DNA from: Chitinophagia bacterium
GTDB taxonomy: Bacteria > Bacteroidota > Bacteroidia > Chitinophagales > Chitinophagaceae
Reading direction: 5' to 3'
Assembly (NCBI GenBank): GCA_021324175.1
Contig: JAJPJP010000169.1
Span: 1-38,365 of the forward strand
DNA length: 38,365 bases
Positions within the stretch are counted from its first letter, which is position 1. Each line of letters opens with the position of its first letter. The notes below the pieces were generated by a model that saw only the letters and a list, made by a program, of their open reading frames with translations, had not been told where the DNA came from and did no database searches. This document shows positions 1 through 19,126 of the stretch, piece after piece. The translations under genes were made by a program, and so were the position numbers.

Positions 1-2712
1 ACTCCCGGAGACATTCTGGAAATTACCAGCATTGGATATACCAGTGAATCATTTACTGTGGGGCGCGAAACCGATATTATGATCAAACTGGAACAGAAGT
101 CCGCTGAGTTGAATGAGGTGGTTGTTACGGGGAACCGCGGTACACCCAGGGTCAGAATTGAAAGTGCCGTTCCGGTAGATGTAATAAAAGTTAACACGAT
201 TGGTGAGACAACTGCGAAACCCGATTTAATGTCACAAATGAATATGGCTGTTCCATCATTTAATTACAATAAACAAAGTGGCGCGGATGGCTCTGACGCG
301 ATCGATTTTGCAAGCCTGAGAGGATTAGGCTATGATCAAACCTTAGTGCTGGTAAACGGCAAAAGATATCATTTGGCTGCCTTCGTTAACGAATTTGGTA
401 CAAGAGGCAGAGGTAACTCCGGAACAGATTTGAACTCGATTCCCGAAGCAGCAATAGATCGAGTCGAAATATTGCGCGATGGTGCGTCGGCACAATACGG
501 CTCTGATGCAATTGCGGGTGTAATCAATATTATTTTGAAAAAGGACGTCAGAAAGTTATCAATGGATGCTGGTTTCAGCGGATATTATGACCATAAATAC
601 AATACGCTCAATAATGTTGATCCAAGTCAATATTACACCGGTTCGCAATTGGATGGTCAAACGTTTAAGGCAAGTTTAAATTACGGACTTCCTATCGGTC
701 AAAACGGGGGGTTTATTAACCTCGGAGCAAACTTCCTTACCGAGGGCAAAACATTTCGCGCGCTTCCGGATACTAATTGGTCAACCAACCCCAATTCTAA
801 ATTGGTGGCACCTTATATTGCTCCATATCGCAGGGCGTTCGGAGACGGATCCATCACGGCAGCAGGTGCCATGTTTAATATGGAATTACCTATTTCAGGA
901 ACGAGAACGACCTTTTACACTTTTGGCGGATTTAATCGCAAGCACTCGAACGTATATGCCTGGACTAGAAATTTTGCTTCACATCCTGAAAAGTTTCCGA
1001 CCGACGCAAATGGCAACCTGATTTTTGTTCCGGGTATAATGAAGGTATTTGACCCGACCAAGGGCTCGTTGGATACCGCTAACGTGTATTATGATCCTCA
1101 GGAAGACGTATATATCACTGACCTGTCTTTGGCCGTAGGCGTTAAAGGTTCGGCAGGCAATGGCTGGGATTGGGACTTGAGCAATGCAATCGGCTATAAT
1201 AATTTTCATTATTTCGGAAACAAGACCTTTAATGCGACTTTGCCTGAGGATGAAGTGGCGACAAAAACAAGATTTGACGATGGCGGGTTCAATTTTCTAC
1301 AAAATACAGCCAACCTGGATTTGAGCAAACGATATGGTGCGATAGCACAAGGATTGACTTTTTCTTTCGGAGCGGAATTTCGCTTTGAAAAATACCAAAT
1401 CTATAAGGGAGAAAACGATTCCTATGGTTACAAGATTCCCCCAAAGTACTATCCCATAGTTGGTGATTCTGTCGATGTCGCATCAGGATCCGAAGGCTTT
1501 CCAGGTTTCAGACCAACTGATGTAGTTAATGCCACAAGGACAAATGTTGGAGGTTATGTTGATGCTGCGTTGGACGTAACCAAAAAATGGTTGCTCGATG
1601 GCGCGATCCGTTTGGAAAATTATTCTGACTTTGGATTTGTGAACACGTATAAGCTTGCAACAAGATATAAACTAACGGATAATTTTAATTTGCGCGGCTC
1701 GGTCAGTACAGGTTTCAGAGCCCCCTCCTTGCAGCAAATTAACTTCAGCAACATCAATACAAACATCGTTGATAATTCCCTCCAATATATCTGGCAGGCC
1801 CCAAATACCAGCGCAGTCGCAAGGGCAGCAGGAATTCCGCCTTTGAAACAAGAGCAATCCGTAAATGGGAGCCTAGGCTTCGCGTGGAAGCCGGTCAGCG
1901 ACCTCACGGTTACTCTTGACGGTTACCTGGTGAAGATGCGAAATCGAGTGATTTTTTCGGGGCAATTTGCCGCGACTTTACCGCAACTTGCGCCGTACAT
2001 GCCAACTAACATATCCCCTCCTGTCAATTCAGTCCAGTTTTTTGCCAATGCCGTAAATACAACCAATACCGGCGTTGACGTTATTATGGATTATTCAAAG
2101 AAGATTGGCAGAAACAGAATTAAAATCCTTCTGGCAGGAAACATTCAAAATATTACGATTGATAAGATTAATGTACCGGGTCCATTGAATGATAATTACT
2201 TTGACCAGCAGACATTTTTCAGCACCCGTGAACAGGCTTTCCTAATTGCGTCCGCACCAAAAGCCAAGTTTTCCCTTAATCTCGAATATGCCATGCGCGC
2301 GCTGTCTGTGGGGACTCATGTGACCTATTACGGAAAACTAACTACTGAGGGATATGGTTATTCAAGCGTGCCCGGTGCGCCGGCTGGCGGCCCTGGAGGG
2401 GCTGGAATTTCCGATGCGGGACTCGGCTACGATCCCTATGTTGAAAAAGATGACGGCTCAGGTGTTGTTCCGGAAGACTTTGTTTTCCATGGTAAGATTA
2501 CGACTGATTTATATCTCTCGTATAAGATCAACAAAAGCGTTTCCTGGGTTGCCGGCATAGACAATATTTTCAATGTCCACCCTGATTTGGCCGCTACTGC
2601 AGGAGCAAAAAATGCGTCATGGGGTGATAGTGAATCGGGCGGCCCCTTTGATGCGGTCCAAATGGGTTATAACGGGATGCGTCTATTCACAAAATTTGCC
2701 CTTAATTTCTAA
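1..2712 (+). CDS. TonB-dependent outer-membrane receptor, 5' end outside window
   Basis: The frame is open from base 1, so the signal peptide and most of an N-terminal carboxypeptidase-like regulatory domain lie upstream of the window. The visible 903 residues start with the end of that domain (SIGYTSESF), then a linker ending in LNEVVVTGNRG, the usual entry to the plug. The plug covers roughly residues 45-180 and has the typical strings LVNGKRYH, IDRVEILRDGASAQYGSDAIAGVINI. The rest is a 22-strand-type barrel ending in FTKFALNF, with a C-terminal Phe as expected for BamA-dependent insertion. The family imports siderophores, vitamins or glycans using TonB energy; the substrate cannot be read from sequence. 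No SusD-like gene follows, so a glycan (SusCD) role is less likely than an iron-complex type receptor. An ATG-less internal start at 58 would remove the regulatory domain and is not credible. Confidence 0.93.
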   Translation, partial: TPGDILEITSIGYTSESFTVGRETDIMIKLEQKSAELNEVVVTGNRGTPRVRIESAVPVDVIKVNTIGETTAKPDLMSQMNMAVPSFNYNKQSGADGSDAIDFASLRGLGYDQTLVLVNGKRYHLAAFVNEFGTRGRGNSGTDLNSIPEAAIDRVEILRDGASAQYGSDAIAGVINIILKKDVRKLSMDAGFSGYYDHKYNTLNNVDPSQYYTGSQLDGQTFKASLNYGLPIGQNGGFINLGANFLTEGKTFRALPDTNWSTNPNSKLVAPYIAPYRRAFGDGSITAAGAMFNMELPISGTRTTFYTFGGFNRKHSNVYAWTRNFASHPEKFPTDANGNLIFVPGIMKVFDPTKGSLDTANVYYDPQEDVYITDLSLAVGVKGSAGNGWDWDLSNAIGYNNFHYFGNKTFNATLPEDEVATKTRFDDGGFNFLQNTANLDLSKRYGAIAQGLTFSFGAEFRFEKYQIYKGENDSYGYKIPPKYYPIVGDSVDVASGSEGFPGFRPTDVVNATRTNVGGYVDAALDVTKKWLLDGAIRLENYSDFGFVNTYKLATRYKLTDNFNLRGSVSTGFRAPSLQQINFSNINTNIVDNSLQYIWQAPNTSAVARAAGIPPLKQEQSVNGSLGFAWKPVSDLTVTLDGYLVKMRNRVIFSGQFAATLPQLAPYMPTNISPPVNSVQFFANAVNTTNTGVDVIMDYSKKIGRNRIKILLAGNIQNITIDKINVPGPLNDNYFDQQTFFSTREQAFLIASAPKAKFSLNLEYAMRALSVGTHVTYYGKLTTEGYGYSSVPGAPAGGPGGAGISDAGLGYDPYVEKDDGSGVVPEDFVFHGKITTDLYLSYKINKSVSWVAGIDNIFNVHPDLAATAGAKNASWGDSESGGPFDAVQMGYNGMRLFTKFALNF

Positions 2713-2849
2713 GCATCCTTAATAATTGCGGGTCGACCGGAACATTTGAGGCCCACAATTATTCACCGATTTTAACCGGCCATTCATCTAATCTTTAGGT
2801 TTAAAACCTTCCTTTATCCGTTTTAACTTTAGGAATCTAAAAACTACAA

Positions 2850-2857
2850 TAGATTTG
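2850..2857 (+). promoter_or_regulatory. Possible -7 promoter element of the kinase/regulator operon
   Basis: TAGATTTG matches the Bacteroidota -7 consensus TAnnTTTG and lies 50 bases before the kinase ATG. No convincing TTG is seen at the -33 distance, so this is a weak call. The rest of the 195-base gap shows nothing else I can assign. Confidence 0.3.
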
Positions 2858-2907
2858 ATGCGTTTTATGTTTTTTGCTGCCAATTACGGCGTCCTAGATA
2901 GACAAAA

Positions 2908-3969
2908 ATGAAATCAGGGAAACTTGCGCTACAGATTGTGATCCACATTGCTGCGTGGGCATGCTTTTTAATGCTGCCTTTTGCATTTATCCCAAGACAA
3001 CGTGAGGGATCATTTATTCCTGCCCAATATTTTTCATTTTATTTTGTCCTCATCAATTGCTTTTATATTGGGTTTTATTACTTGAATTATTATGTATTGA
3101 TTCCGAAGTTGCTCACAAGAAAAAGAGTGATCCCATTTATTATCGTTAGTGTTTTATTCCTCCTTTTTTTTGGACTGTTCCTCAGATTATACCATTATTT
3201 TAGCGACACACTGGGTTGGCTGCCCCCAATAGTGAGACTCTCAACCAGGCCAAGAAACCTGCTTCCTCCACTCCTTTCACCTGGTTCTATTGCTATTTTC
3301 ACGATGGTATTTGCCGTGAGTACCGGCCTGCGTGTCATCACCCAATGGTTTCAGACAGAACAGCGGAACAAGGAAATTGAAAATGAAAAGCTGAATACGG
3401 AGCTATCTTTTTTGAAGTCGCAAATAAATCCCCATTTTTTGTTCAATACTTTAAATAACATTTACTCGCTCGCCGCTGACGGCTCAAGGCATACCGCAGA
3501 AGCCGTGATGAAATTGTCGAGTATAATGCGCTACGTATTAACGGAAGCAAAAAACGATTACGTTCCGGTTGAAAAAGAAATTCAATTCATAAGGCATTAT
3601 ATCGAACTGCAAAAACTTCGTCTGACGGACAAATCGCATGTAACTTTTGAGGTTGAGGGTGATCCAACCGGGAAAAAGATATCCCCGCTTCTTTTTCTTC
3701 CTTTTGTAGAAAATGCTTTTAAATACGGCATAAGTACCCGCGAAAGTTCGCCCATTTCAATCGTATTAAAAATTGTCGACAATGCAGTGCATCTTTCAAT
3801 CAAAAATAACAAGCATAGCAGCACAATTTTGAAACCGGCAGAAAATACCGGAATCGGCATTAACAACAGCCGGAGGCGGCTTGATTTGCTTTATAATAAT
3901 CGGTATTGCTTAACAATTGACAATAATCTCGCAACTCATTTGGTAAATCTAAAAATTGAACTGATATGA
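2908..3969 (+). CDS. LytS/YehU-type sensor histidine kinase
   Basis: A 353-residue inner-membrane kinase. Four hydrophobic segments occur near residues 8-28, 42-66, 76-96 and 124-146, followed by a short coiled-coil-like linker (residues 147-168). The His_kinase (PF06580) signature SQINPHFLFNTLNN places the phospho-accepting His at 176. The ATP-binding half follows, with the N-box LPFVENAFKYG and a late GIGINNSRRRLDLLY segment. There is no periplasmic sensor domain, so the signal is probably sensed in or at the membrane. Its stop overlaps the start of the LytTR regulator (ATGA), which indicates translational coupling and a cognate pair. Family members signal to LytTR regulators controlling envelope or metabolic genes; the stimulus here is unknown. 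Confidence 0.93.
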   Translation: MKSGKLALQIVIHIAAWACFLMLPFAFIPRQREGSFIPAQYFSFYFVLINCFYIGFYYLNYYVLIPKLLTRKRVIPFIIVSVLFLLFFGLFLRLYHYFSDTLGWLPPIVRLSTRPRNLLPPLLSPGSIAIFTMVFAVSTGLRVITQWFQTEQRNKEIENEKLNTELSFLKSQINPHFLFNTLNNIYSLAADGSRHTAEAVMKLSSIMRYVLTEAKNDYVPVEKEIQFIRHYIELQKLRLTDKSHVTFEVEGDPTGKKISPLLFLPFVENAFKYGISTRESSPISIVLKIVDNAVHLSIKNNKHSSTILKPAENTGIGINNSRRRLDLLYNNRYCLTIDNNLATHLVNLKIELI

Positions 3970-4667
3970 TTTCATGCATAGCGGTTGATGACGAGCCACT
4001 GGCGCTTGAAGTGTTAAAAAAGTACATTGCAAAAATTTATTTTCTCGATTTGAAAGGAATTTTTACGGATGCATACGAGGCAAAAAAGGCACTTGACGCG
4101 GAAGCAGTCGATCTGATTTTCCTGGACATCCAGATGCCAGACATCAACGGAATTGAATTCTCAAAACTGGTAAATAGGAAGACAACTGCTGTCATTTTTA
4201 CCACGGCTTTTAGCGAATATGCCGTTGAAGGCTTTAACGTGGATGCAATAGATTATTTGCTCAAACCGATTGAATATGACCGATTCCTGAAAGCAGTATA
4301 TAAAGCAAAAGAATATATCGAGTATACTAACAGCATGGAACTGGCAGAAGGTTACATTTTCGTAAAGTCAGACTACCAAATGATGAAAATCAATCTTAAA
4401 GACATCATTTATATTGAGGGGCTAGACGATTACATAAAAATTTATCTTCCTCAAAAATCGGTATTGACGCTGATGACCTTAAAGACGATAATGCAAAAGT
4501 TACCTCCGAAGGAATTTATTCGAGTCCATCGCTCATATATTGTACCTATTAGCAAAATTGGCAATATAAGCAAGAGCAAAGTAAAAATTGGCGACAAGGA
4601 AATTCCAATTGGGATCAGTTATAGCGAAAGCTTTTTTGCCGAAATGGATAAAAAAATGAGCGGATAG
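3966..4667 (+). CDS. LytTR-family response regulator
   Basis: 233 residues. The receiver domain covers about residues 1-120: acidic pair D8/D9, phospho-acceptor D54 in FLDIQMPD, switch Thr near TTAF, and conserved Lys in LLKPIEYD (about 107). The LytTR DNA-binding domain covers about residues 135-230 (YIEGLDDYIKIYL, FIRVHRSYIVPISKI). The ATG overlaps the kinase stop by four bases, so the two are co-translated. LytTR proteins bind direct repeats upstream of their targets. The adjacent TonB receptor or the downstream aldehyde dehydrogenase could be targets, but nothing in the sequence proves this. A hairpin with a T tract overlaps the stop codon and closes the operon. Confidence 0.94.
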   Translation: MISCIAVDDEPLALEVLKKYIAKIYFLDLKGIFTDAYEAKKALDAEAVDLIFLDIQMPDINGIEFSKLVNRKTTAVIFTTAFSEYAVEGFNVDAIDYLLKPIEYDRFLKAVYKAKEYIEYTNSMELAEGYIFVKSDYQMMKINLKDIIYIEGLDDYIKIYLPQKSVLTLMTLKTIMQKLPPKEFIRVHRSYIVPISKIGNISKSKVKIGDKEIPIGISYSESFFAEMDKKMSG

Positions 4668-4687
4668 TCGTCCGCCGATTTTTTTTT
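4660..4687 (+). terminator. Intrinsic terminator of the kinase/regulator operon
   Basis: A 5-bp GCGGA/TCCGC stem with a 6-base loop is followed after three bases by a run of nine T. The left arm overlaps the regulator's last codons and stop. It is the first of three hairpin-plus-T structures in 230 bases. Confidence 0.6.
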
Positions 4688-4780
4688 CGTATTTGCCTAA
4701 AATTGTGTAGGCCTCGCGCTTCTTGTTCATAATTTTACTGTGATTTTTTTTGGATAAAGCAACAAGCCAATCTTTTTTTT

Positions 4781-4805
4781 CGTACACGTGTTGTACGCTT
4801 TTTTT
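4781..4805 (+). terminator. Second hairpin plus T tract in the gap before the aldehyde dehydrogenase
   Basis: A 6-bp CGTACA/TGTACG stem with a 5-base loop is followed by C and seven T. It lies about 95 bases after the previous terminator, so it may end a short untranslated transcript starting in 4688-4780, or act as a backup terminator. Confidence 0.5.
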
Positions 4806-4818
4806 CATAGTAGATTTT

Positions 4819-4889
4819 AAGTTTGGTTAGGAACTTGGTTAGCAGAATTTCCTAACTTGCTTGCGGTTTCTCTAACCGCAAGCTTTTTT
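4819..4889 (+). promoter_or_regulatory. Attenuator-like leader abutting the aldehyde dehydrogenase start
   Basis: A perfect 10-bp stem (4859-4868 with 4874-4883, loop TCTCT) is followed by six T, and the ATG begins at the very next base (4890). This looks like an intrinsic terminator inside the leader. Upstream, GTTAGGAA (4826-4833) can pair with TTCCTAAC (4849-4856). GGTTAG occurs twice (4825-4830 and 4837-4842) and is complementary to CTAACC (4872-4877), which spans the terminator loop and right arm. Alternative pairing could therefore open the terminator. The structures are seen directly; a regulatory switch is inference. Confidence 0.5.
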
Positions 4890-6413
4890 ATGGACATATT
4901 GAATCAGCTCAATTTAAAAAAAAACAATCCCGGCACTTCTACTGGCCAGAAGTGGATTGGTCGGTCGGCAGGTAAAATTCAATCCCGGTCGCCGGTAGAT
5001 GGAAGGGAGATTGCTTCGCTTGCCGCGACTTCCAAAAAAGAATATGATGATGTTATAAATGAGTCTCTGAAGGCATTCGGGGAATGGCGACTCTGGCCGG
5101 CTCCAAAAAGAGGTGAGGTAGTTCGACAAATAGGCGAAGCATTGAGGGCTCACAAGGCTTCTTTAGGACGACTTGTATCTTATGAAATGGGCAAGAGTCT
5201 CGCGGAAGGACTTGGTGAGGTCCAAGAAATGATAGATATATGCGATTTGGCAGTTGGGCTGTCCCGGCAGTTAAACGGACTAACGATGCACAGCGAACGC
5301 CCTTCCCATCGCATGTATGAACAATGGCATCCGCTGGGAATTGTAGGAATTATTTCTGCCTTTAATTTTCCCGTCGCCGTGTGGAGCTGGAACAGCATGA
5401 TTGCCTGGGTTTGTGGCGATGTCTGCGTCTGGAAACCAAGCGAGAAAGCACCCCTTTGTGGAATTGCCTGCCAGCAAATCGTTGCCAATGTATTTTCAAA
5501 AAATAAAGTACCTGAAGGAGTCAGCAACCTCATCAATGGCGACAGAGAAGTAGGCGAATGGATGGCGAATGATGTTAGGATTCCGCTCATTTCGGCTACG
5601 GGTTCAACGAGGATGGGGCGTGCAGTTGGAACTGCTGTTGCAGCACGATTGGGGAGATCGCTTCTAGAGTTGGGTGGGAATAATGCAATTATATTTTCAG
5701 ATAGTGCAGATTTACATGTCGCAATTACTGGAGCAGTTTTCGGCGCCGTTGGAACTGCAGGGCAAAGGTGCACCTCTACGAGACGCCTGATTGTACAGGA
5801 AAAAATTTATGCAAGGACGAAAGAAAGGTTGAAAGAAGCATATAGCCAACTGAAAATAGGAAACCCACTGGACGAAAAAAATCATGTTGGACCCCTCATT
5901 GACCTGGATGCAGTTAAGGCATACCAAAATGCAATTGCAATTTGCAAAAAGCAGGGTGGTAAATTCATTGTTGAAGGAGGTGTCCTGGAAGGGGATGGCT
6001 TTGAAAGCGGATGCTATGTTAAGCCCTGCATTGCCGAAGTTCGCCCAACATTTGATATAGTTAAACAGGAAACCTTTGCTCCCATCCTTTATTTAATGAC
6101 GTACAAGACAATCGAAGAGGCAATTGCAATTCAGAACGAAGTGCCTCAGGGGCTGTCTTCATCCATCATGACATTAAATCTCAGAGAGTCAGAAAAATTT
6201 CTTTCCGCTTCAGGAAGTGATTGTGGAATCGCTAATGTCAACATTGGAACCTCGGGCGCCGAAATTGGCGGCGCTTTCGGGGGAGAGAAAGAAACTGGTG
6301 GCGGAAGGGAAAGCGGTAGCGATGCCTGGAAGGCTTACATGCGTCGGCAAACCAACACGATTAATTATTCAACTGACTTGCCACTGGCGCAAGGCATCAA
6401 GTTCGAGTTTTAG
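4890..6413 (+). CDS. Aldehyde dehydrogenase, ALDH7 (aminoadipate semialdehyde) type
   Basis: 507 residues from the ATG at 4890. An in-frame TTG at 4857 lies within the leader hairpin and adds a residue stretch unlike the family, so I reject it. Catalytic features are the FNFP oxyanion Asn near 160, the nucleotide-binding GSTRMG at 238-243, the general base Glu260 in LLELGGNN, and nucleophile Cys294 in GTAGQRCTSTRR. The C-terminal segment GGAFGGEKETGGGRESGSDAWKAYMRR is typical of ALDH7, whose best-known role is NAD-dependent oxidation of alpha-aminoadipic semialdehyde in lysine breakdown; it also detoxifies other aldehydes. The protein is predicted to be cytosolic. No other lysine-catabolism gene is nearby, so the exact substrate is inferred from family only. 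The unusual hairpin leader suggests its expression is conditional. Confidence 0.92.
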   Translation: MDILNQLNLKKNNPGTSTGQKWIGRSAGKIQSRSPVDGREIASLAATSKKEYDDVINESLKAFGEWRLWPAPKRGEVVRQIGEALRAHKASLGRLVSYEMGKSLAEGLGEVQEMIDICDLAVGLSRQLNGLTMHSERPSHRMYEQWHPLGIVGIISAFNFPVAVWSWNSMIAWVCGDVCVWKPSEKAPLCGIACQQIVANVFSKNKVPEGVSNLINGDREVGEWMANDVRIPLISATGSTRMGRAVGTAVAARLGRSLLELGGNNAIIFSDSADLHVAITGAVFGAVGTAGQRCTSTRRLIVQEKIYARTKERLKEAYSQLKIGNPLDEKNHVGPLIDLDAVKAYQNAIAICKKQGGKFIVEGGVLEGDGFESGCYVKPCIAEVRPTFDIVKQETFAPILYLMTYKTIEEAIAIQNEVPQGLSSSIMTLNLRESEKFLSASGSDCGIANVNIGTSGAEIGGAFGGEKETGGGRESGSDAWKAYMRRQTNTINYSTDLPLAQGIKFEF

Positions 6414-6521
6414 GCCAGCAAATCATCGGAATGTCAGGGTTTTATCGGCTTTTGTCAAAATAATACTGCTGTCCTGGCGTTATACAATCGTCTAGGTATT
6501 TTCGGCGAATTTATCCAAACT

Positions 6522-8081
6522 ATGAAAAAATACTTGCCTTTACTCGTTGTGCTGCTTTCTGTTAACTGCATCAGCTCCTATGCACAGGTTAAACTGGGTG
6601 GCGAAATCGGTTTTCATTCAGCAAATGTCCAGGAGACCAATAGCCTCCCTGGATGGGATACCGCGGCAAAACCATATTATAGCAGTCGCACTGCCATTCA
6701 CTTCGGCGTCAACCTGGAAATCCCCCTCACCAACCGATTATTCTTCCAGCCGGCTATTGATTATACTTCCAAGGGACGGCAATTTACTAAGAACAGCAAT
6801 GTTATTGACAGTGCAAGCCTGGATACAATTTATATGAAGAATTCGCTTAGTGTGGATTATATCGAAATGCCATTTTACATAACCTATAAATTGCCACTAA
6901 GTAAAAATCACAAGAATAATTTTTTCATTGGAGCCGGTCCGTATTTGGCATTCATTTACAGTGGAAACTGGACAAGTCAAATTCTGACCCAACAGGATAC
7001 AACTAGCCAGTTTTCGACTCAAACCAACAAAATCGAGGTTGGCAACGCGATTGGCAAGTACAAGACGTTGGATCTGGGCATCAACATAAAGACAGGCATC
7101 GAGTTTGGCAGTATAACACTCAGCGGCTATCTCAGCCAGGGGCTTTCCAATTTTTATTCAGCCCCATATACAAGTACTTTTCATCACAAGGTCGAAGGGA
7201 TTACACTTGGAGTTTGGCTTGGAAAATCTGGTAAGCCTGAACATCCTTCAAAGCCGATGCTTCCAGAAAAAGTTGTTGTCAAAGACAGCGACAATGATGG
7301 AATTCCTGACGACAAGGATCTTTGTCCCAATGTACCGGGTGTCGCAAAATATAACGGGTGTCCAGTTCCAGACACGGATCATGACGGGATTGATGACGAT
7401 CACGATTCTTGCAAAACGGTGCCCGGAGTGGCTCGCTACAATGGCTGCCCTGTTCCAGACACCGATGGCGACGGTATTGATGACGAACACGATTCTTGCA
7501 AAACGGTGCCTGGAGTGGCTCGCTACAATGGCTGCCCTGTTCCAGACACCGATGGCGACGGTATTGATGACGAACACGACTCCTGCAAGACAGTGCCGGG
7601 CGTTGCACGCTACCATGGATGCCCCATACCCGATCGCGACCATGATGGCGTTAACGATGAGGAAGATAAATGCCCTGATGTACCAGGTGTACCCGAGAAT
7701 AATGGTTGTCCCGCAATTAAGCAGGAAATCAGGCAAAAAATAAATTACACATCAAAAAATATTCTCTTTGCTTCAGGCAGTGAACGGCTTTCTCGGGTTT
7801 CTTTTGACGCTTTAAATCATTTAGCACAATTGTTGGCAAGCCATCCCGAATTTCATCTGACAATCAATGGTTTCACGGATAATACGGGGACAGCTGAAGG
7901 AAACCTTCTTCTTTCCAGACAGCGTGCGAACACCGTGAAAAATTATCTTATCGGGAAAGGAATTCCTGAAGATCGTATTACCGCAAATGGGTTCGGTCAG
8001 CAAAATCCAATTGCGGATAATAACTCACCAATCGGGAAAGAAAAAAACAGGAGAGTTGAATTCAAAGTAACTACTCAATAA
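6522..8081 (+). CDS. OmpA-family outer-membrane protein with thrombospondin type 3 repeats
   Basis: 519 residues. A signal peptide (about residues 1-21, ending SSYAQ) is followed by a PorT-like beta-barrel region (about 22-230). After a Pro/Lys-rich linker come five Asp-rich TSP3 calcium-binding repeats (about 253-400; DSDNDGIPDDKDLCP and variants). A C-terminal OmpA peptidoglycan-binding domain (about 405-519) has the signature NLLLSRQRANTVKNYL and a GFGQQNPIADN segment. The protein should sit in the outer membrane with the OmpA domain tethering it to peptidoglycan. Repeats two to four are nearly identical at DNA level, implying recent duplication. It stands alone, with about 108 bases on the 5' side and 119 on the 3' side. 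Confidence 0.93.
   Translation: MKKYLPLLVVLLSVNCISSYAQVKLGGEIGFHSANVQETNSLPGWDTAAKPYYSSRTAIHFGVNLEIPLTNRLFFQPAIDYTSKGRQFTKNSNVIDSASLDTIYMKNSLSVDYIEMPFYITYKLPLSKNHKNNFFIGAGPYLAFIYSGNWTSQILTQQDTTSQFSTQTNKIEVGNAIGKYKTLDLGINIKTGIEFGSITLSGYLSQGLSNFYSAPYTSTFHHKVEGITLGVWLGKSGKPEHPSKPMLPEKVVVKDSDNDGIPDDKDLCPNVPGVAKYNGCPVPDTDHDGIDDDHDSCKTVPGVARYNGCPVPDTDGDGIDDEHDSCKTVPGVARYNGCPVPDTDGDGIDDEHDSCKTVPGVARYHGCPIPDRDHDGVNDEEDKCPDVPGVPENNGCPAIKQEIRQKINYTSKNILFASGSERLSRVSFDALNHLAQLLASHPEFHLTINGFTDNTGTAEGNLLLSRQRANTVKNYLIGKGIPEDRITANGFGQQNPIADNNSPIGKEKNRRVEFKVTTQ
7365..7625 (+). repeat. Three tandem 87-bp units inside the TSP3 region
   Basis: Units start at 7365, 7452 and 7539, each beginning GTTCCAGACAC and encoding 29 residues (PDTDGDGIDDEHDSC...GCPV). 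Units one and two are nearly identical over their second half. Units two and three are identical over about their first 40 bases. The phase keeps the frame, so unit gain or loss would only change repeat number. Flanking units on both sides encode the same motif but have diverged. Confidence 0.9.
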
Positions 8082-8200
8082 TGGTTCGAAATTTAACAAC
8101 TCTGTTTACCCTTTCATGTAATTTAAATACTGAGGGCTGGAGAGTTTAATTAATTTCGCCGTTTACTTGTTTTTTAACTTCAACTCAAAAGAATTTTATA

Positions 8201-9907
8201 ATGCGTCAATTGAAAATGTTAGTGGTCTTTATTGGCCTTATAATCTTTAACCTGTCAATTTTTGGCCAGGGCACATCCACGAAGCAGGACCTGCCAAATG
8301 GTTGGCATTTAATGGATAAGCAGCAAGACGGGTATTATGGAATAAGCCTGAACAAAGCTTACGAATTTTTGAAACTAAAAAACCTCAAGAGTAAGACGGT
8401 AATCGTCGCGGTGATCGATTCGGGTATTGATACGCTTCAGGAAGATTTGAAAGATATTTTGTGGACGAATCCGAAAGAAATACCAGGGAATGGGATCGAC
8501 GATGATCATGATGGATACGTTGATGACGTCCATGGGTGGAATTTTCTAGGAGGTAAAGATGGTCAGAATGTTAACGACGATTCTGGTGAAGATGCTCGAG
8601 TTTATTTTGAATTCAAAAAGCAATTCGAGACGCCGGGCTTTGACGCCTCGTCTTTATCGGCCGATGATAAGGAGAAATACACGATGTGGCAAAAGGCAAA
8701 AAAAAGACTGATGGGCGCCACCACAGAAAGTCCTGATGATCTGGTATTGCTTAAGCGTGTACTTGCGGCGTCCGTAATGAGTGACAGTGTCCTGCAAGGC
8801 GCAATGGGAAGGAAAGAATATACAGGAAATGATCTTGACACATTCCAGGCGTCAACGCCCGACATCAAAAGAGCAAAAGAAATATTACTGTTTTCATTTC
8901 GCGAAAACAAGATAATGGATGTTACGAACAAAGCATTCCTGACAGATTTTAATGAGTACGTTAACATGCAGGTAAAAAAGGCTGAATCAAAAGACAAAGC
9001 GCCGGAAAATGTCCGAAAGAAAATTGTCCAAGATAACGAGGAAGATATTAACGATAAATATTATGGCAATAACGATATTATGGCCGGCGAGCCGATGCAC
9101 GGTACCCATGTTTCCGGCATAATTGCGGCCGAACGCGGCAATGGCAAGGGCATGGATGGAATAGCAGACAACGTACGAATTATGATGATCCGTGCAGTGC
9201 CAGGCGGCGACGAACATGATAAGGATGTTGCGCTCGCGATTCGTTATGCGGTCGACAATGGTGCCAAGGTTGTCAATATGAGTTTCGGCAAGGACCTTTC
9301 ACCTGAAAAAAAATGGGTTGACGACGCTGTAAAATATGCGGAAAGCAAAGGGGTTTTATTAGTGCATGCGGCTGGGAATGATGCTGAAGATGTGGATACG
9401 ACTGATAATTTTCCTTGCCCTGATTTCAAGGACCATTCCGGCAAGGCATCCAATTGGATCACCGTAGGGGCCAGCAGTGATCCGGCAGCAGAAGCGGGAT
9501 TCAAGAGCTACACAGCATCTTTTTCAAATTACGGAAAGAAAGAAGTAGACGTGTTCGCGCCAGGTACCAAGATATATTCGACACTGCCCGGAGGCCATAA
9601 TTATGGCAATCTGCAGGGAACAAGCATGGCAGCTCCCGTCGTTACGGGCATAGCCGCATTGATTATGGAATATTATCCAAACCTAACTGTGCAGCAAGTA
9701 AAATTTTGCATAGAAAGATCTGCTACACCCCTGGCCGAGAAGGTTAAAAAACCCGGAACGGACAATGAATTGGTAAACTTAGCTGACATCAGCGTTTCCG
9801 GCGGAATTGTCAACGCTTATGGTGCCGTAAAGCTCGCCTATAATATTAGCACCGAGTCAAAAAAAGACGACCTTCCCAAATCTACCTTAAAAGACAGAAA
9901 AGATTAG
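8201..9907 (+). CDS. Secreted subtilisin-like (S8) serine protease with large Asp-His insert
   Basis: 568 residues with a signal peptide (about 1-23, ending FGQ). The catalytic triad is visible: Asp73 in VIDSGID, His300 in HGTHVSG, Ser475 in GTSMAAP, and the oxyanion Asn393 in AAGND. About 226 residues separate Asp from His, where classical subtilisins have a few dozen. The insert includes a Ca-like GNGIDDDHDGYVDDVHGWNF stretch, shared with many Bacteroidota S8 peptidases, and a Lys/Glu-rich helical portion. The C-terminus is short and Lys-rich, with no T9SS tail, so the protein is probably periplasmic or exported by Sec only. Possible roles are protein turnover or processing of surface proteins; the substrate is unknown. 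A strong terminator follows. Confidence 0.93.
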   Translation: MRQLKMLVVFIGLIIFNLSIFGQGTSTKQDLPNGWHLMDKQQDGYYGISLNKAYEFLKLKNLKSKTVIVAVIDSGIDTLQEDLKDILWTNPKEIPGNGIDDDHDGYVDDVHGWNFLGGKDGQNVNDDSGEDARVYFEFKKQFETPGFDASSLSADDKEKYTMWQKAKKRLMGATTESPDDLVLLKRVLAASVMSDSVLQGAMGRKEYTGNDLDTFQASTPDIKRAKEILLFSFRENKIMDVTNKAFLTDFNEYVNMQVKKAESKDKAPENVRKKIVQDNEEDINDKYYGNNDIMAGEPMHGTHVSGIIAAERGNGKGMDGIADNVRIMMIRAVPGGDEHDKDVALAIRYAVDNGAKVVNMSFGKDLSPEKKWVDDAVKYAESKGVLLVHAAGNDAEDVDTTDNFPCPDFKDHSGKASNWITVGASSDPAAEAGFKSYTASFSNYGKKEVDVFAPGTKIYSTLPGGHNYGNLQGTSMAAPVVTGIAALIMEYYPNLTVQQVKFCIERSATPLAEKVKKPGTDNELVNLADISVSGGIVNAYGAVKLAYNISTESKKDDLPKSTLKDRKD

Positions 9908-9931
9908 ACCCGTTTGACCTAATTTTTCGAA

Positions 9932-9963
9932 AATACCGGATTTTTTGTCCGGTATTCTTTTTT
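9932..9963 (+). terminator. Intrinsic terminator after the S8 protease gene
   Basis: A perfect 9-bp stem AATACCGGA/TCCGGTATT with a 7-base loop is followed by C and six T. It lies 25 bases after the protease stop and 17 bases before the DinB-like GTG start, so that gene needs its own promoter or read-through. Confidence 0.8.
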
Positions 9964-9979
9964 ACATTTACCAAAAAAA

Positions 9980-10489
9980 GTGTTATCCAAGAAAGACTGC
10001 ATAGCTGCCGATTTTTATCGTTCCTATATCGATAAGATAAAAGAACAAGATGTTAGCAAAGCACTGAAAAAAAACACCGCACAGGTGAAAAAAATGCTGA
10101 AAAAAATTCGGACAAAGAAAATTGATTACGCTTATGCTGAAAACAAATGGACAATTAAAGAAATATTGCAGCACGTAATAGACGCCGAAAGAGTCTTTAC
10201 ATACCGCGCAATGACTTTTGCCAGAAAAGACGGAACACAATTGCCAAGTTTTGATGAAAAAGTGTGGGCAGAAAATGCAAAGGTCCACAAACGAAAATGG
10301 AAGGAAATGGTTAACGAATTCAAATCGGTTCGCAAAGGAACGGAAAAGTTATTTCGCTCCTTTGATAACGAGCAACTGCTTTCAACCGGAACTGCAAGTA
10401 ATAATACGATCAATGTGCTTGCTCTTGGTTTTATATGTGCCGGTCATGCCGCACATCACATTAAGGTCATTAAAGACAAATACCTTTGA
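9980..10489 (+). CDS. DinB/YfiT-fold putative metal-dependent protein
   Basis: 169 residues, read from GTG at 9980 because the first in-frame ATG is about 37 codons in and would cut helix 1. The DinB four-helix fold is indicated by WTIKEILQHVIDAERVFTYRAMTFAR (first metal His in LQHVIDAE) and the C-terminal GHAAHHIKVIKDKYL, which supplies an HxxxH pair. Family members bind Zn or Ni; some are thiol-dependent transferases (bacillithiol, mycothiol), and many are uncharacterised. The gene starts 17 bases after the upstream gene's terminator and ends 36 bases before the MFS transporter, with which it may be co-transcribed. The biochemical function is unknown. Confidence 0.82.
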   Translation: MLSKKDCIAADFYRSYIDKIKEQDVSKALKKNTAQVKKMLKKIRTKKIDYAYAENKWTIKEILQHVIDAERVFTYRAMTFARKDGTQLPSFDEKVWAENAKVHKRKWKEMVNEFKSVRKGTEKLFRSFDNEQLLSTGTASNNTINVLALGFICAGHAAHHIKVIKDKYL

Positions 10490-10525
10490 TTTCATTGGGC
10501 TCCTTCACTCCTAATTGTACTGTCA

Positions 10526-11683
10526 TTGGATGATTTGTTAATCCTGGAACAACGCAAGAAACGAACGCTTAGATTTTCTGTAGCAACATTTTTTTTCGTA
10601 GCGGGACTATGTTTCGCAAGCTGGGCTTCGCGGATAGCCGACATCCAATCAACATTGCATCTTAATAATGCTGAACTTGGGTCGGTCCTGCTTGGTCTGC
10701 CGGTCGGCCTGCTCCTATCCTTACCGTTCGCTGGAATCCTTGTTGCAAGATTCGGCAGCAGGAATGTAGTACTTAGCGCAGCTTTTTCTTACGCCCTATT
10801 GCTTCCTTTATTGGGGCTTACCATCTCTGGATGGCAGCTGATGTTGAGTCTCTTCCTCTACGGGATTAGTGGCAATATTCTTAATATTTCTGTTAATACT
10901 CAAGCCGTCGGTGCCGAATATATTTTTGGCCGTTCAATAATGGCGTCCTTCCACGGGATTTGGAGCCTCGCGGGATTTGTCGGCGCGGCGCTGGGAGCGC
11001 TGTTTATCTCGCTCCACTTTTTACCTTACCAGCATTTTTTAATAATCGCAGCTACGGCTTCGTTTTTGATAATCAGGGCTTCGTCCAATTTAATTCCGCT
11101 CGATGTAAATAGCAGCGAACAAAGGCCTGTTTTTTCATTGCCGGACAAATCATTAATAAACCTTGGTTTCATTGCTTTTTGTAGCATGATTTGCGAAGGA
11201 ACAATGTTTGACTGGAGCAGCGTATATTTCAAACGTGTAATCAGGCCCTCTAATGATTTAATTGCTGCCGGCTATACCGCCTTCATGTGTACTATGGCTT
11301 TGGGCAGGTTCGCTGCAGATCATCTAGCGTCAAAATATGGGAAAAGACGGGTCCTTCAATTGAGTGGTGTTCTGACTGCGGCCGGATTGTTACTCGCCAT
11401 AACAGCGCCGTATTTCTTCCCAGCCATTGCCGGGTTCCTCCTGGTCGGCGCAGGCGTTTCATCAGTCGTGCCTTTCGTCTATAGCATAGCGGGCAAATCG
11501 AAAACGCTGTCATCGGGCGTCGCTCTGGCTGCCGTGTCGACGATCGGCTATTTTGGGTTCCTTGTTGGTCCTCCGGTAATCGGCTTCATTGCACAAATTG
11601 TCAATCTGCGTGTTTCATTTTGCGTGATAGCTATTTTGGGCATTGGAATTACCTTCCTTGCCAGGAAAACAATTATCGCATAG
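10526..11683 (+). CDS. MFS transporter, YbjJ-like
   Basis: 385 residues with about 12 hydrophobic segments from residue 16 to the end. The N-terminal block SVATFFFVAGLCFASWASRIADIQ, then LNNAELGSVLLGLPVGLLLSLPFAG and the loop motif ARFGSRN resemble the YbjJ branch of the major facilitator superfamily. The substrate is unknown; family relatives are annotated as sugar or drug transporters without firm evidence. No ATG exists near the N-terminus. The start is TTG at 10526 (or TTG at 10535), both before the first basic stretch EQRKKRTLR. The gene follows the DinB-like gene by 36 bases. Confidence 0.88.
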   Translation: MDDLLILEQRKKRTLRFSVATFFFVAGLCFASWASRIADIQSTLHLNNAELGSVLLGLPVGLLLSLPFAGILVARFGSRNVVLSAAFSYALLLPLLGLTISGWQLMLSLFLYGISGNILNISVNTQAVGAEYIFGRSIMASFHGIWSLAGFVGAALGALFISLHFLPYQHFLIIAATASFLIIRASSNLIPLDVNSSEQRPVFSLPDKSLINLGFIAFCSMICEGTMFDWSSVYFKRVIRPSNDLIAAGYTAFMCTMALGRFAADHLASKYGKRRVLQLSGVLTAAGLLLAITAPYFFPAIAGFLLVGAGVSSVVPFVYSIAGKSKTLSSGVALAAVSTIGYFGFLVGPPVIGFIAQIVNLRVSFCVIAILGIGITFLARKTIIA

Positions 11684-11865
11684 GAATCTATGTATCCGGA
11701 AAATCGAATTTCAAACCGGTTATTTTTTCTCGGATCTTCATTCATCCTTTCGGATTCGGCTAAGCACTGTTGATTTCCGGATCATTGCGCCAAACTTTTC
11801 CCATCAAGCAGAAGTCCATTCATTGTCTGCATTGGTTGCGGAATTGGGGACAGATCCTAAAAGAA

Positions 11866-11892
11866 TAGTCCGGGATATTATAACCCGGACTA
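11866..11892 (-). terminator. Intrinsic terminator of the C-terminal processing protease gene (minus strand)
   Basis: A 9-bp TAGTCCGGG/CCCGGACTA stem with a 9-base loop lies 23 bases beyond the minus-strand stop. Read on the minus strand it is followed by TTCTTTTAGG, a T-rich tail. The plus strand lacks a T tract, so it serves the minus-strand gene. Nothing else is seen in the gap 11684-11914. Confidence 0.6.
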
Positions 11893-11914
11893 CGACAATT
11901 GAATTCGAAATGTT

Positions 11915-14062
11915 TTACTTGTTATATACAAGGCTTTTTGAAGATACCATGTCGTCGACCACTTTTACGGCTTCATCCAGCCAGATGTCTCGTTGAAGTC
12001 CCTTCATCCAACGTGCATACCTTTCTGCCTTGTCTTTGTCGTTGTCGAATTTTCCTGCATCTTGCGGCAAAGTTTCAACCTTGAGTTCATTTGGCAGCTT
12101 GCTTAGCGATTCAATCTGTTTTACGGCTAATTTCCACTTCTTCTGTTCTTCACGATATTTGTCAATATTTAGGGAGTGCGATTTATCGTTTTGAGCATTC
12201 AACCAGGATGCATCGCGATTAATTATGGTAAAAGCGGAATCGTTTTTCAGTCTTTGTTCACTGGCTTTGATGATAGGGTTAAGGTCATAAGCATATTTCC
12301 AAGTGGTGTAATTGGCCTTCTGGATTTCATCCCATGGTAGCGCATCTGGATTATCTTTCTCCCTTACTTTTGCGTATTCGAGCGCGTCAGGCAAGACTAC
12401 ATCGGAAGATACTCCACGCAATTGAGTGGATCCCCCGTTGATTCGATAGAATTTTTGTAAGGTCAATTTGATCGTGCCCAAATCACCATTGTCATTGGAA
12501 AAGCCAAGAGATTTATCGAGTTCGATATTTCTTTGAACCGTACCTTTCCCATAAGTCGAAGTACTTCCAATAATAACTCCTCTCTTATAATCCTGAATTG
12601 CTGCTGCAAATATTTCAGACGCGGAAGCGCTGTATTCATTTACCATAACTGCCAGTGGGCCATCATACAAGAGATTTTTGTCCTGGTCAGTATACACGTG
12701 GGGCTTGCCATCCCTGTCCCTAACTTGGACAACAGGCCCCTGGTCAATAAATAAACCGACCATTTGGACAACGTCGTAAAGCGATCCGCCTCCATTGTAG
12801 CGGAGATCTATTACGATCCCGTCTACTTTTTCTTCCTTCAATTTGAGAATTTCTTTGGCCACATCAATTGAACACCTGTGCGCTTTTGGATTTTCGAAAT
12901 CCGCGTAAAACTCAGGCAGAAAAATATAACCAATTTTGCCCTTTTCTCCATTAATTATCACACTTCTTGCGAACGTTTCATCCTGAACGATCTCGTCTCT
13001 TATGAGTGATACAACTTTTACTGTTCCATCCGCCTTTTTAATAGTCAAACGCACTTCTGTTCCTTTTTCTCCTCGAATTAGTTTTATCGCATCCTCTGTT
13101 TCAAATCCGGTTAGGTCGACTGGCTCTTGATTTCCTTGACCAACCTTCATGATGATGTCACCGCTATTGATCTGTCCGGATTTCCAGGCGGGCATGCCTG
13201 TGAGTAATTCTCCAATTTTGATATTGCCATCCTCCTCTTTTAGCGTGGCGCCGATGCCAAAAAAGTGTCCACTCATCTGCTCATCGAAATACCTTTTCTC
13301 GACTGGAGGGAAATAAGCCGTATGCGGATCCATTGATTCCACCACGGTTTCCACAAACTCGTTGAAGCGTTCATCGTCGCTAAATCTGTACTTTATTCTT
13401 TCGTAAAACCTGTCCATAATCTTCATAACCTTTTCACGTGCTTCTTTTTCAAGATCGCCATTCGATTTCGGTACATGGCCTGCCGTGGCTATACTGGAAT
13501 GTTCCTGATCTAAAAGATCAGCATACCGCTCCAATGCCAGGTATTTTAATCTTTTGCGCCAAGATTCTTTGCGTTCAGCATCATTTTTCGGAAAATCCAT
13601 CTTACTGTAGTCTTCACTTACAGTTTCATCTTTGGAAAAGTCGAACGGATGTGATAAAATATCTTTATATATTGACTCCGTTTCGGAAATACGCTGTTTG
13701 AGAATCGCGACAACTGCCGGCTCGAATTGAATGGTTGTTTTCCCAAGAATTTCGTCATCAATTTTGGTCTCATATTTCTTTAATGCATCAATATCCGTCT
13801 TTAGAAGAATATCCTTCTCATTATCGACTTCTGACAAATACTTATTAAAAACTTCCTTTGAGAATTTGTCATCGATGCTTTTGGGGCTATAATGAACATC
13901 CTCAAGCATCACGCCAACGTCACGCAAAATTTTTTCATATTTGGTTGGGGGATCACCTTTATATCCAAAAGAACGGAATGCGACGAAAATACCGCATCCC
14001 AGCACCATCAAAACTATAGGGAGATTTCTTTTATTGAACATATATTCAAACAATTTTGACAT
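11915..14062 (-). CDS. Carboxy-terminal processing protease (Prc/Tsp type, S41A)
   Basis: 715 residues from the first ATG at 14062; ATG at 14041 and TTG at 14110 are alternatives. A membrane anchor lies at about residues 13-30. A helical region precedes a PDZ domain near 260-350 (FFGIGATLKEEDGNIKIGELLTGMPA). The S41 catalytic core contains the carboxylate-binding DLRYNGGGSL, Ser480 in the SASASE motif and Lys506 in STYGKGTVQ. The C-terminal helical domain matches the Prc DUF3340 region. Length is close to E. coli Prc (682). The enzyme trims or degrades periplasmic proteins from their C-termini; in other bacteria Prc affects lipoprotein and peptidoglycan hydrolase turnover. A TATTTTTG box at 14066-14073 on the minus strand sits so close to 14062 that the 14041 start would fit better if the box is the promoter. 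Confidence 0.93.
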   Translation of the reverse strand: MSKLFEYMFNKRNLPIVLMVLGCGIFVAFRSFGYKGDPPTKYEKILRDVGVMLEDVHYSPKSIDDKFSKEVFNKYLSEVDNEKDILLKTDIDALKKYETKIDDEILGKTTIQFEPAVVAILKQRISETESIYKDILSHPFDFSKDETVSEDYSKMDFPKNDAERKESWRKRLKYLALERYADLLDQEHSSIATAGHVPKSNGDLEKEAREKVMKIMDRFYERIKYRFSDDERFNEFVETVVESMDPHTAYFPPVEKRYFDEQMSGHFFGIGATLKEEDGNIKIGELLTGMPAWKSGQINSGDIIMKVGQGNQEPVDLTGFETEDAIKLIRGEKGTEVRLTIKKADGTVKVVSLIRDEIVQDETFARSVIINGEKGKIGYIFLPEFYADFENPKAHRCSIDVAKEILKLKEEKVDGIVIDLRYNGGGSLYDVVQMVGLFIDQGPVVQVRDRDGKPHVYTDQDKNLLYDGPLAVMVNEYSASASEIFAAAIQDYKRGVIIGSTSTYGKGTVQRNIELDKSLGFSNDNGDLGTIKLTLQKFYRINGGSTQLRGVSSDVVLPDALEYAKVREKDNPDALPWDEIQKANYTTWKYAYDLNPIIKASEQRLKNDSAFTIINRDASWLNAQNDKSHSLNIDKYREEQKKWKLAVKQIESLSKLPNELKVETLPQDAGKFDNDKDKAERYARWMKGLQRDIWLDEAVKVVDDMVSSKSLVYNK

Positions 14063-14170
14063 AATCAAAAATAACGATAAAACTAGAGGCTTGTTGCATA
14101 TTATCAACAATTAACGAGCCATTTTGATGGGTGGCGAGAGTAATGATTTCCCGCAAACTCATTTTTTAAT

Positions 14171-14178
14171 TACTTTTG
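14171..14178 (+). promoter_or_regulatory. Likely -7 element of the tRNA-His promoter
   Basis: TACTTTTG matches TAnnTTTG and ends 13 bases before the tRNA 5' end, the expected distance for a short 5' leader. A -33 TTG is not evident. Confidence 0.5.
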
Positions 14179-14191
14179 TCGCCCTATTGAC

Positions 14192-14266
14192 GGAGGGTGT
14201 AGCTCAGTTGGTTAGAGCGTCAGATTGTGGCTCTGAAGGCCGTGGGTTCGAATCCCATCACTCTCC
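14192..14266 (+). tRNA. tRNA-His (anticodon GTG)
   Basis: A full cloverleaf is present. The acceptor GAGGGTG (14193-14199) pairs with CACTCTC (14259-14265). T8 and A9 are followed by D-stem GCTC/GAGC. The anticodon arm is TCAGA/TCTGA with loop TTGTGGC, giving anticodon GTG at 14227-14229, and the T-arm is GTGGG/CCCAT with TTCGAAT. The extra G at 14192 pairs with the discriminator C at 14266, the G-1:C73 hallmark of tRNA-His. The full CCA end is not encoded. Confidence 0.97.
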
Positions 14267-14276
14267 CACTTTCAAG

Positions 14277-14301
14277 CCCGAGGCATGACTTCGGGTTTTT
14301 T
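14277..14301 (+). terminator. Intrinsic terminator after tRNA-His
   Basis: A CCCGAG/TTCGGG stem (six pairs including one G-T) with a 7-base loop is followed by six T, starting 11 bases after the tRNA. The downstream DUF445 ATG is only 13 bases away, so that gene depends on read-through or on a promoter I cannot see. Confidence 0.7.
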
Positions 14302-14313
14302 CATAAGAAAATC

Positions 14314-14919
14314 ATGAATCCCTGGCTATACACAATCCCTTTTATATCCGCTTTTATTCATTGGCTAACTATTTGGATGGCGCTAAAATTATTGTTCCAT
14401 CCAAGAACCCCGAGAAAAATTTTATTCGTCAAGTTCCAAGGAGTTTTTCCGAAAAGACAGAACCAAATCGCAGAAACCCTGGGCAAAATAGTCGGTCAAG
14501 AGTTATTGTCTTTTGCGGATATTGAGGAAACGATCAGCCATCCTGAAAATGTTCGCAAAATTTTGCCCGCGGCTGAAGTACATATTGACCATTTTTTGCG
14601 CGTCCGCCTAAAAGAAAATATGCCGATGATATCGATGTTTATTGGAGAAAAAACAATCAGCCAACTGAAGATCGTTTTCATGCAGGAGCTTGAGGAGCTA
14701 TTTCCGCAAATAATGAAGTCCTATGTTAACAACCTCAAGCAGGATTTGGATCTCGAAAGGATAGTTGTTGAAAAGGTTGCAGCATTTTCATCGGAAAAAC
14801 TTGAAAAGATGTTGAACCAAATCCTTACGAAGGAATTTCGTGTAGTGGAAGTGATTGGCGCTGCGCTGGGATTTTTTATCGGGATCGTTCAAATCCTCCT
14901 GACACTGGTGATTCGATAG
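14314..14919 (+). CDS. DUF445 family membrane protein
   Basis: 201 residues from ATG at 14314. A longer frame opens at 14227 but would run through the tRNA, so it is rejected. The protein starts with a hydrophobic segment (about 2-28, NPWLYTIPFISAFIHWLTIWMA), then KLLFHPRTPRKI and FQGVFPKRQNQIAETLGKIVGQELLS, the typical DUF445/YheB pattern. It ends with another hydrophobic helix (about 178-200). The middle is amphipathic helical. Members are membrane proteins of unknown biochemical role found in many bacteria. The gene sits between tRNA-His and an outer-membrane receptor with no obvious operon partner. Confidence 0.85.
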   Translation: MNPWLYTIPFISAFIHWLTIWMALKLLFHPRTPRKILFVKFQGVFPKRQNQIAETLGKIVGQELLSFADIEETISHPENVRKILPAAEVHIDHFLRVRLKENMPMISMFIGEKTISQLKIVFMQELEELFPQIMKSYVNNLKQDLDLERIVVEKVAAFSSEKLEKMLNQILTKEFRVVEVIGAALGFFIGIVQILLTLVIR

Positions 14920-15007
14920 AATTCTTCTCGCCCTCCCATCGAGTAATTAGGCCGTTAATAACTATTGAATTTCAATAGTCGATTATTGTTTTCAACTTTG
15001 CGTCACA

Positions 15008-17680: not shown

Positions 17681-17707
17681 TTTTTGAAATCTTGTAAAAG
17701 AATCGGT

Positions 17708-18964: not shown

Positions 18965-19126
18965 AAATCTGATTTATTCAGTGAAAAAAATTGGAGGTTG
19001 GAGCGGGAACACAAGCAAAACGTCGATTTTAAAAAGAAATTGCAAAATAAAAGCTAAAGTGAATTCGGGAAAGCTTTAACAGACAAATGCTCGTTGCATT
19101 AGCGCAAAAACAATTTAAATAACCGG

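Follow-up and report, generated by a model that had tools for sequence, protein, structure and literature searches.

A conserved terminator hairpin at the start codon of an aldehyde dehydrogenase gene probably ends a separate FopS/GibS-like small RNA gene

The hairpin that touches the start codon of an aldehyde dehydrogenase (ALDH) gene in a Chitinophagia bacterium is probably the terminator of a separate small RNA (sRNA) gene of the FopS/GibS kind, which is interlocked with the promoter of the ALDH gene. The DNA analysed, called the window here, is one contig of 38,365 nucleotides from a draft genome (5.1 Mb, 88% complete). An earlier note on this DNA had described a perfect 10-bp stem followed by six T that end at the ATG, and reading of the letters confirmed it (Table 1). 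In the arrangement that we propose, an ECF-like sigma factor would transcribe about 100 nt from near position 4790, and transcription of the sRNA would end at the 4859-4889 terminator. The mostly unpaired 5' block UUUUUUUCAUAGUAGAUUUUAAGUU would pair with the start regions of mRNAs, including those of SusC-type and other signal-peptide genes, and keep them from being translated, in the manner of FopS and GibS in Bacteroides. The ALDH mRNA would start inside the 5' arm, could not form the full terminator and would have a more accessible start codon, and the terminator may both end the sRNA and insulate the ALDH gene.

Table 1. Positions of the genes, predicted signals and helices around the ALDH start codon in the window
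Feature	Position	Strand	Basis
LytTR response regulator, upstream neighbour	3966..4667	+	Pfam Response_reg and LytTR
Terminator-like hairpin of the LytTR gene	4660-4675	both strands	overlaps LytTR stop codon
ECF-sigma-like promoter (predicted)	4759..4784	+	GCAAC 4759-4763, CGTA 4781-4784, 17 bases between CAAC and CGTA
Predicted sRNA, about 100 nt	4790..4889	+	between promoter boxes and terminator; 5' end estimated within a few bases
Seed block TTTTTTTCATAGTAGATTTTAAGTT, mostly unpaired	4799..4823	+	near-invariant in 20 loci
GGTTAG copies	4825-4830 and 4837-4842	+	direct reading
Hairpin 1	4825..4857	+	GTTAGGAA 4826-4833 / TTCCTAAC 4849-4856; optimal fold of the window
Putative ALDH promoter -7 box TAACTTGC (TAnnTTGY)	4853..4860	+	like F. 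psychrophilum SM5; overlaps terminator 5' arm
Intrinsic terminator of the predicted sRNA	4859..4889	+	10-bp stem, 5-base loop, T6; covariation
Terminator stem	4859-4868 / 4874-4883	+	GCTTGCGGTT/AACCGCAAGC, 10 perfect pairs, 6 G-C
Terminator loop TCTCT	4869-4873	+	direct reading
CTAACC	4872-4877	+	terminator loop/3' arm
T6, then ALDH ATG	4884-4889, then 4890-4892	+	direct reading
ALDH gene, L-piperidine-6-carboxylate dehydrogenase, 507 aa	4890..6413	+	NCBIfam NF050084, 825.6 bits vs cut-off 730

The terminator is a conserved regulatory RNA structure rather than a chance hairpin. There are 27 terminator-like sites on both strands of window positions 1-19000 (shuffle mean 19.4, sd 4.4), and this hairpin is listed first among them. 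The stretch 4819-4900 folds at -27.8 kcal/mol, compared with -15.4 +/- 2.8 kcal/mol for its shuffles (z -4.5; 0 of 200 as good). Across 20 loci, window included, 95.5% of the cells of the helix are paired, versus 27.5-37% for slid versions of the helix. Both sides have changed in 4 of the 10 pairs, and in none of five measures did any of 500 shuffles equal the helix. A DNA operator at the inverted repeat was considered and rejected: the loop between the arms differs in length among relatives and G-U pairs are present, and RNA pairing is therefore preferred.

The ALDH gene has orthologues in 92 of 98 genomes searched, and the enzyme that it encodes belongs to lysine catabolism. By ALDH, the best named relatives are drafts of Bacteroidota and Chitinophagaceae and species of Chitinophaga, which makes Chitinophagaceae the probable family of the bacterium. 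The conserved element in front of it (about 4759-4889 in the window) was found in 20 of the 33 genomes of the genus, by reading the DNA upstream of ALDH and then by a pattern search that added three genomes, and it always lies between the LytTR gene and ALDH. The LytTR gene is the next gene upstream, on the same strand, in all 20 element loci, and a histidine kinase gene is also located upstream of ALDH in the window. Model R1 placed all 20 elements before ALDH (E <= 5.8e-9) and added no further genome; as the model was built from those 20, its positives are given by construction and the informative part is the absences. Four weak extra matches (E 0.36-0.70) all fall in genomes that already have the element, and at good R1 scores the ALDH-linked type is single copy in each genome. 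By this model 13 of the 33 genomes are without the element, and the region upstream of ALDH was read in 8 of the 13. In the element-negative genome G031 the ALDH match starts at a contig edge, the upstream region of G005 was left out of the reading, and G001, G016 and G018 gave no ALDH match at E<=1e-100. On the ALDH tree, where many forks are weak, the distribution of the element is clustered and takes at least three changes, and a single supported clade unites 7 of the 8 genus loci that are without it. One locus (L008) was trimmed by 12 bases before alignment A2.

In its upstream part the element resembles an independent sRNA gene that carries a seed of the FopS type. The order is CAAC, spacer, CGTA, (insert), block, variable-length stretch, TAA[AC]TTGC, terminator and ATG. 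CAAC is present in 20 of 20 loci, and C, G, T and A of CGTA in 20, 19, 20 and 19 of them; the spacing is fixed at 17 save for one gap in L015, and the letters of the spacer are not conserved. CAAC...CGT at such a spacing is a type of site recognised by ECF sigma factors, and we infer an ECF-like sigma type for the sRNA promoter. PMC9723704 assigns the SM6 promoters of Flavobacterium psychrophilum, which have a CGT -10 box, to sigma-ECF. Between CGTA and the block, 12 of the 20 loci hold an extra hairpin stretch (mostly GCCGG/CCGGC). In the DNA alignment of the 20 loci the block reads T5-6-CATA(A)GTAG[AG]TTTTAAGTT and is nearly invariant; as RNA, its near-invariant consensus U5-7-CAUA(A)GUAG(A/G)UUUUAAGUU is complementary to a AUGAAAAA-type start region. 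In the window the seed block is the reverse complement of a ...AACTTAAAATCTACT-ATG-AAAAAA start region, and single-sequence folds leave the block mostly unpaired or weakly paired.

The terminator region also seems to hold the promoter of the ALDH gene itself. SM5 promoters of F. psychrophilum are described as having TAnnTTGY at -12 to -5 (PMC9723704). Such a box lies at -37 to -47 from ALDH in 18 of the 20 element loci, where the aligned letters are TAA[AC]TTGC. All 8 same-genus loci that were read and are without the element have it too, 7 of them at -25 or -26 and the eighth at -30, and none of 5 loci from outside the genus does. The predicted ALDH mRNA start is at about 4865, within the 5' arm of the terminator, and an RNA from 4865 retains just GGTT-TCTCT-AACC of the hairpin. 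Because the box overlaps the arm, the ALDH mRNA should be without most of the 5' arm and would escape termination; the same overlap speaks against an ALDH mRNA that begins upstream of the terminator, so far as the sequence can tell. The cost of opening the ALDH start in the window is 17.3 kcal/mol in the long RNA versus 7.9 kcal/mol in the RNA from 4865, and the means over 18 loci (leaving out L007 and L008, which are without the TAnnTTGY box) are 18.5 versus 5.2 kcal/mol.

The earlier note had read the region as an attenuator or riboswitch with mutually exclusive folds. RNA from an upstream promoter would then be the 5' UTR of ALDH, in which a signal (lysine, an aldehyde or a protein) bypasses the terminator. 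We consider this unlikely, even if an element that precedes ALDH in 20 of 20 loci and was never found away from it is what is expected of a leader, and even if, in the window, the terminator adjoins the ATG and the leader holds two stable hairpins. The separate GTTAGGAA/TTCCTAAC hairpin that the note proposed (hairpin 1) is indeed present in the optimal fold of the window, but it forms there side by side with the terminator, so the two are not mutually exclusive. Likewise, the letters for pairing GGTTAG with CTAACC are in place, but they do not make a true competitor: the forced pairing gives -17.4 or -15.0 versus -29.4 kcal/mol, which is 12-14 kcal/mol weaker. Complementarity of six bases between the leader and the terminator loop plus 3' arm is attained by 53 of 200 leader shuffles, and in all 20 loci, 20 or more of the 200 shuffled leaders pair equally well with the terminator loop/arm. 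The letters CTAACC near the ATG occur in 1 of the 20 loci, the window, and are absent from the other 19. The hairpin 1 region reaches z <= -2.0 in 8 of the 20 loci and not in the remaining 12, and RNAalifold on alignment A1 recovered no consensus for hairpin 1. At gathering thresholds, Rfam reported tRNA only in the window (a tRNA gene lies at 14193-14266) and no cis-regulatory family, and permissive Rfam scans (5 loci, 6 loci; E<=5, E<=10) gave no cis-regulatory family either; their matches to rli36, snoRNA and the like were judged to be chance. From the above, a riboswitch or attenuator fails both as a set of conserved mutually exclusive helices and as a known aptamer or cis-regulatory family, and the ALDH switch is unsupported because the competing pairing is weak, at chance level and missing in 19 of 20 relatives. 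The FopS-like conserved block, the ALDH promoter box within the terminator region and the start site that is costly to open in a read-through mRNA also count against it.

Two other explanations leave the sRNA out. The element may be a plain insulator, in which the one role of the terminator is to halt transcripts that run on from the LytTR operon and the upstream block belongs to the control DNA of ALDH, for example as an operator; the covarying terminator, the promoter box over its 5' arm and the LytTR gene upstream in 20 of 20 loci are in agreement with this. However, LytTR has a terminator-like site of its own (Table 1), the distance from block to box varies and the stretch between them changes in length, which fits RNA better than an operator, and the block resembles a multicopy sRNA-like family elsewhere in the genomes, so that we rate an insulator even lower than a switch. 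Far more improbable than either is a small minus-strand gene that begins with the block (ATGAAAAAA at 4808). A 91-aa minus-strand ORF (4808-4533) begins there, ATGAAAAA is conserved on the minus strand and the peptide start MKKLVL is common to several relatives, but the length of the frame ranges from 5 to 91 and 9 of the 20 loci have a stop within 20 codons, on which ground this candidate was rejected, and the covarying terminator and the promoter boxes sit on the plus strand.

The separate sRNA gene that we prefer would be of the FopS kind. FopS sRNAs of Bacteroides are described as base-pairing close to the susC start codon and so repressing translation, with the RRM protein RbpB as antagonist, and as highly conserved within Bacteroidaceae (PMC11697453). 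GibS of B. thetaiotaomicron is described as a longer relative of FopS with a non-canonical promoter (PMC7366714). The FopS covariance model RF04319 (cut-off 56 bits) gave matches in the permissive Rfam scans after the element was already defined, in 1 of 5 loci and then in 2 of 6. The two relatives scored 24.8 and 24.1 bits (E 4-7) versus the cut-off of 56, and the window copy (L126) had no RF04319 match in the six-locus scan. In the own genome at E<=10, RF04319 gave 10 matches, among which the element is second (21.0 bits) and the best other match has 30.4 bits; the E-value of the element is 1.84, meaning that about two such matches are expected by chance in this genome, and 8 of 14 control genomes also give RF04319 matches at E<=10. 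The position of the match weighs more than its score: by simple proportion, the chance that any of the 10 matches overlaps, on the same strand, a 92-base place fixed beforehand within 10.2 Mb of strand is about 1.6 in 10,000.

As for membership in FopS, the element has a mostly unpaired 5' seed of R1 type, aligned in two relatives, and a 3' intrinsic terminator. By score it stays below 56 bits in the window (21.0) and in the relatives, and where FopS has the primary-sigma promoter TAnnTTTG the element carries CAAC-N17-CGTA. RF04319 bears Bacteroidetes in its title, but its cut-off was reached in 0 of 148 sampled genomes of the phylum, with 43.9 bits as the best score, and in one control genome, Bacteroides ihuae. 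The 43.9-bit match (L303 in G188, same class, another family) contains TGTGTTTTTCATTG and a strong terminator, and is a possible link between Bacteroides FopS and the sRNA family described here. The own genome has 6 RRM_1 matches. Among the titles and abstract openings listed in searches of openly licensed papers, we found no description of FopS-like sRNAs outside Bacteroidaceae.

Among the own-genome RF04319 matches, L158, L160 and L161 carry one exact 26-mer in common, and L153 and L155 are similar by eye; L156, L157, L159 and L162 were set aside as not sRNA-like by eye. With up to 3 mismatches, the 26-mer GTTTTTCATAGGATATTGGATTTTAA occurs in 33 of 33 genus genomes at 2-10 copies each, versus 0 for the backward control. 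In 30 paralogue loci that were read by eye, one per genome, a terminator lies downstream (L198 runs off its contig), and the regions immediately upstream are promoter-like, mostly with TAnnTTT-like boxes. In paralogues L191, L204 and L216 we noticed CACAAT-N17-CGTTAAT, with the 17-base spacing of the ALDH-linked element, which suggests more than one promoter class for the family. Many genus genomes (G009, G013, G002 and others) also hold exact repeats of a third seed variant, GCTTTTAATAGGATATTGGATTTTAG, which is without CAT (anti-ATG) and may have other targets. There are also divergent FopS-like sRNA candidates (L153, L155, L304), of a GGATAAGGTTTAATGG type in the own genome and, similar, in another genus of the family, with a very short GTGTTTTTCATAGG type among them.

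Model R2 was built on alignment A3 from 22 of 27 extracted genus paralogues, two of them trimmed. It finds 2-13 copies per genus genome. Elsewhere in the family it matches 20 of 26 genomes of other genera, 16 of these at E <= 2.5e-12, and in the rest of the order it matches, weakly, 6 of 39 genomes of other families (E<=0.01). In a 247-genome sample of the phylum, 14 match at E<=0.001, 7 of which are outside the family with 30.7-33.9 bits. R2 gave no match on the window element; on the element loci, 11 of 20 match in register at 9.9-15.1 bits, and the best element row (L019) has 17.9 bits out of register. Two unrelated window sites score 13.6 and 12.4. Since R2 misses the window element and is weak on the others, the ALDH-linked RNA is a distinct branch at best. 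Compared at the seed, 11 of 352,538 genomic 40-base windows (a set that takes in the G009 copy of the element) score as high as the window element against the paralogue seed, and 60 of 352,538 against the FopS 5' end; for the L022-like subtype the numbers are 426 and 60.

Predicted pairing with start regions was counted for 872 crudely called ORFs in 1.2 Mb of G009, with 24 shuffles per seed. At <=-16 kcal/mol, the G009 ALDH-type seed has 44 start versus 23 internal windows, the paralogue seed 45 versus 25 and the window seed 36 versus 18, all three above their shuffles (start-region means 21.9, 17.4 and 22.9; maxima 35, 35 and 34); this excess is partly built in, because the seeds complement AUGAAAAA. 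At <=-14 kcal/mol the G009 and window ALDH-type seeds (89, 97) fall below the highest shuffle (92, 106), and at <=-18 kcal/mol the best shuffle of the paralogue seed equals it (12) and that of the window seed surpasses it (14 v 11).

SusC is the target class of FopS, and the ALDH-type seed appears to favour SusC starts. Against 20 SusC starts of the own genome the window seed has a median of -12.2 kcal/mol with 6 of 20 at <=-14, and 0 of 60 shuffled seeds attain its median or its count. Other own starts (n=173) have a median of -10.1 kcal/mol with 18 at <=-14, so that SusC is paired better (p 0.00024). Three other subtype seeds against the same SusC starts gave p 0.013, 0.00011 and 0.03, and the G009 seed gave p 0.0083 for 11 SusC-like genes versus 861 others in G009; the paralogue seed has no SusC preference (p 0.99, 0.24). 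The comparison was devised late in the analysis. Its SusC set is 20 of 25 matches with start codons picked by hand, and the other genes start at the first ATG of crude ORFs; because the SusC starts were hand-picked, we regard the preference as a lead rather than proof.

Directly after ALDH in the window lies an OmpA-like outer-membrane gene (6522-8081), whose start region is the best of 23 window start regions for predicted seed pairing (-17.2 kcal/mol), at about chance level. Genes for signal-peptide-like proteins in two genomes have an exact complement of the block 4 bases ahead of their ATG, in G021 (L127 = L135, perfect over 20 bases) and in G031 (L124), but the element was not found in G031. 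L127 and L135 are one gene at two contig ends, probably an assembly duplicate. With up to 3 mismatches, AACTTAAAATCTACTATGAAAAA has one site in G012 plus the two copies of one G021 gene outside the elements, versus 4 backward-control matches, and GTAG[AG]TTTTAAGTT occurs at 5 places away from ALDH versus 4 in the backward control. Long specific targets of the block were rejected, since the backward controls turn up about as often as extra copies of this kind and the rare long matches are no evidence for targets.

A multicopy relative in 33 of 33 genomes of a distant genus suggests that sRNAs blocking A-rich start regions are old and general in a phylum without classical Shine-Dalgarno signals. 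We tentatively suggest, as something possible that we would not yet call probable, a Bacteroidota-wide superfamily of start-codon-blocking sRNAs that includes the FopS/GibS branch. The genus would have a multicopy branch and an ECF-driven branch. The latter would have a terminator that is also the promoter region for a gene of lysine catabolism, and would tie the synthesis of SusC-type outer-membrane proteins to envelope stress, as the sigma-E sRNAs of enterobacteria do. The ECF-like promoter offers a testable link to envelope stress. Moreover, the overlap of an sRNA terminator with a downstream promoter, with the start inside the stem, would be a compact layout that naive prediction of terminators or attenuators misreads.

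Compared with known systems, the element is like attenuators and riboswitches in having a terminator immediately before a start codon, but it has no conserved alternative helix or known ligand-binding core, and it has a promoter box downstream. In enterobacteria, an envelope-stress sigma factor, sigma-E, drives the sRNAs MicA and RybB, which block the start regions of outer-membrane proteins; these are Hfq-dependent and have other sequences, so the likeness is an analogy only. GibS, likened here by description only, is a longer single sRNA that has the R1 seed in common with FopS and a non-canonical promoter, PM2, but it is described as 145 nt long with two seeds, other neighbours and two established target mRNAs (PMC7366714). 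FopS is bound by RbpB in Bacteroides, where it blocks susC translation near the start codon (PMC11697453). The similarity of the element to it is sub-threshold (21-25 bits vs the cut-off of 56), and the element has an ECF-like promoter and about 100 nt with an extra hairpin region, whereas FopS uses sigma-ABfr and has 65-70 nt. The element and FopS (RF04319) share a 5' unpaired seed starting with G-U5-CAU and an intrinsic terminator downstream, and FopS is multicopy in Bacteroides genomes, as the related paralogue family is here.
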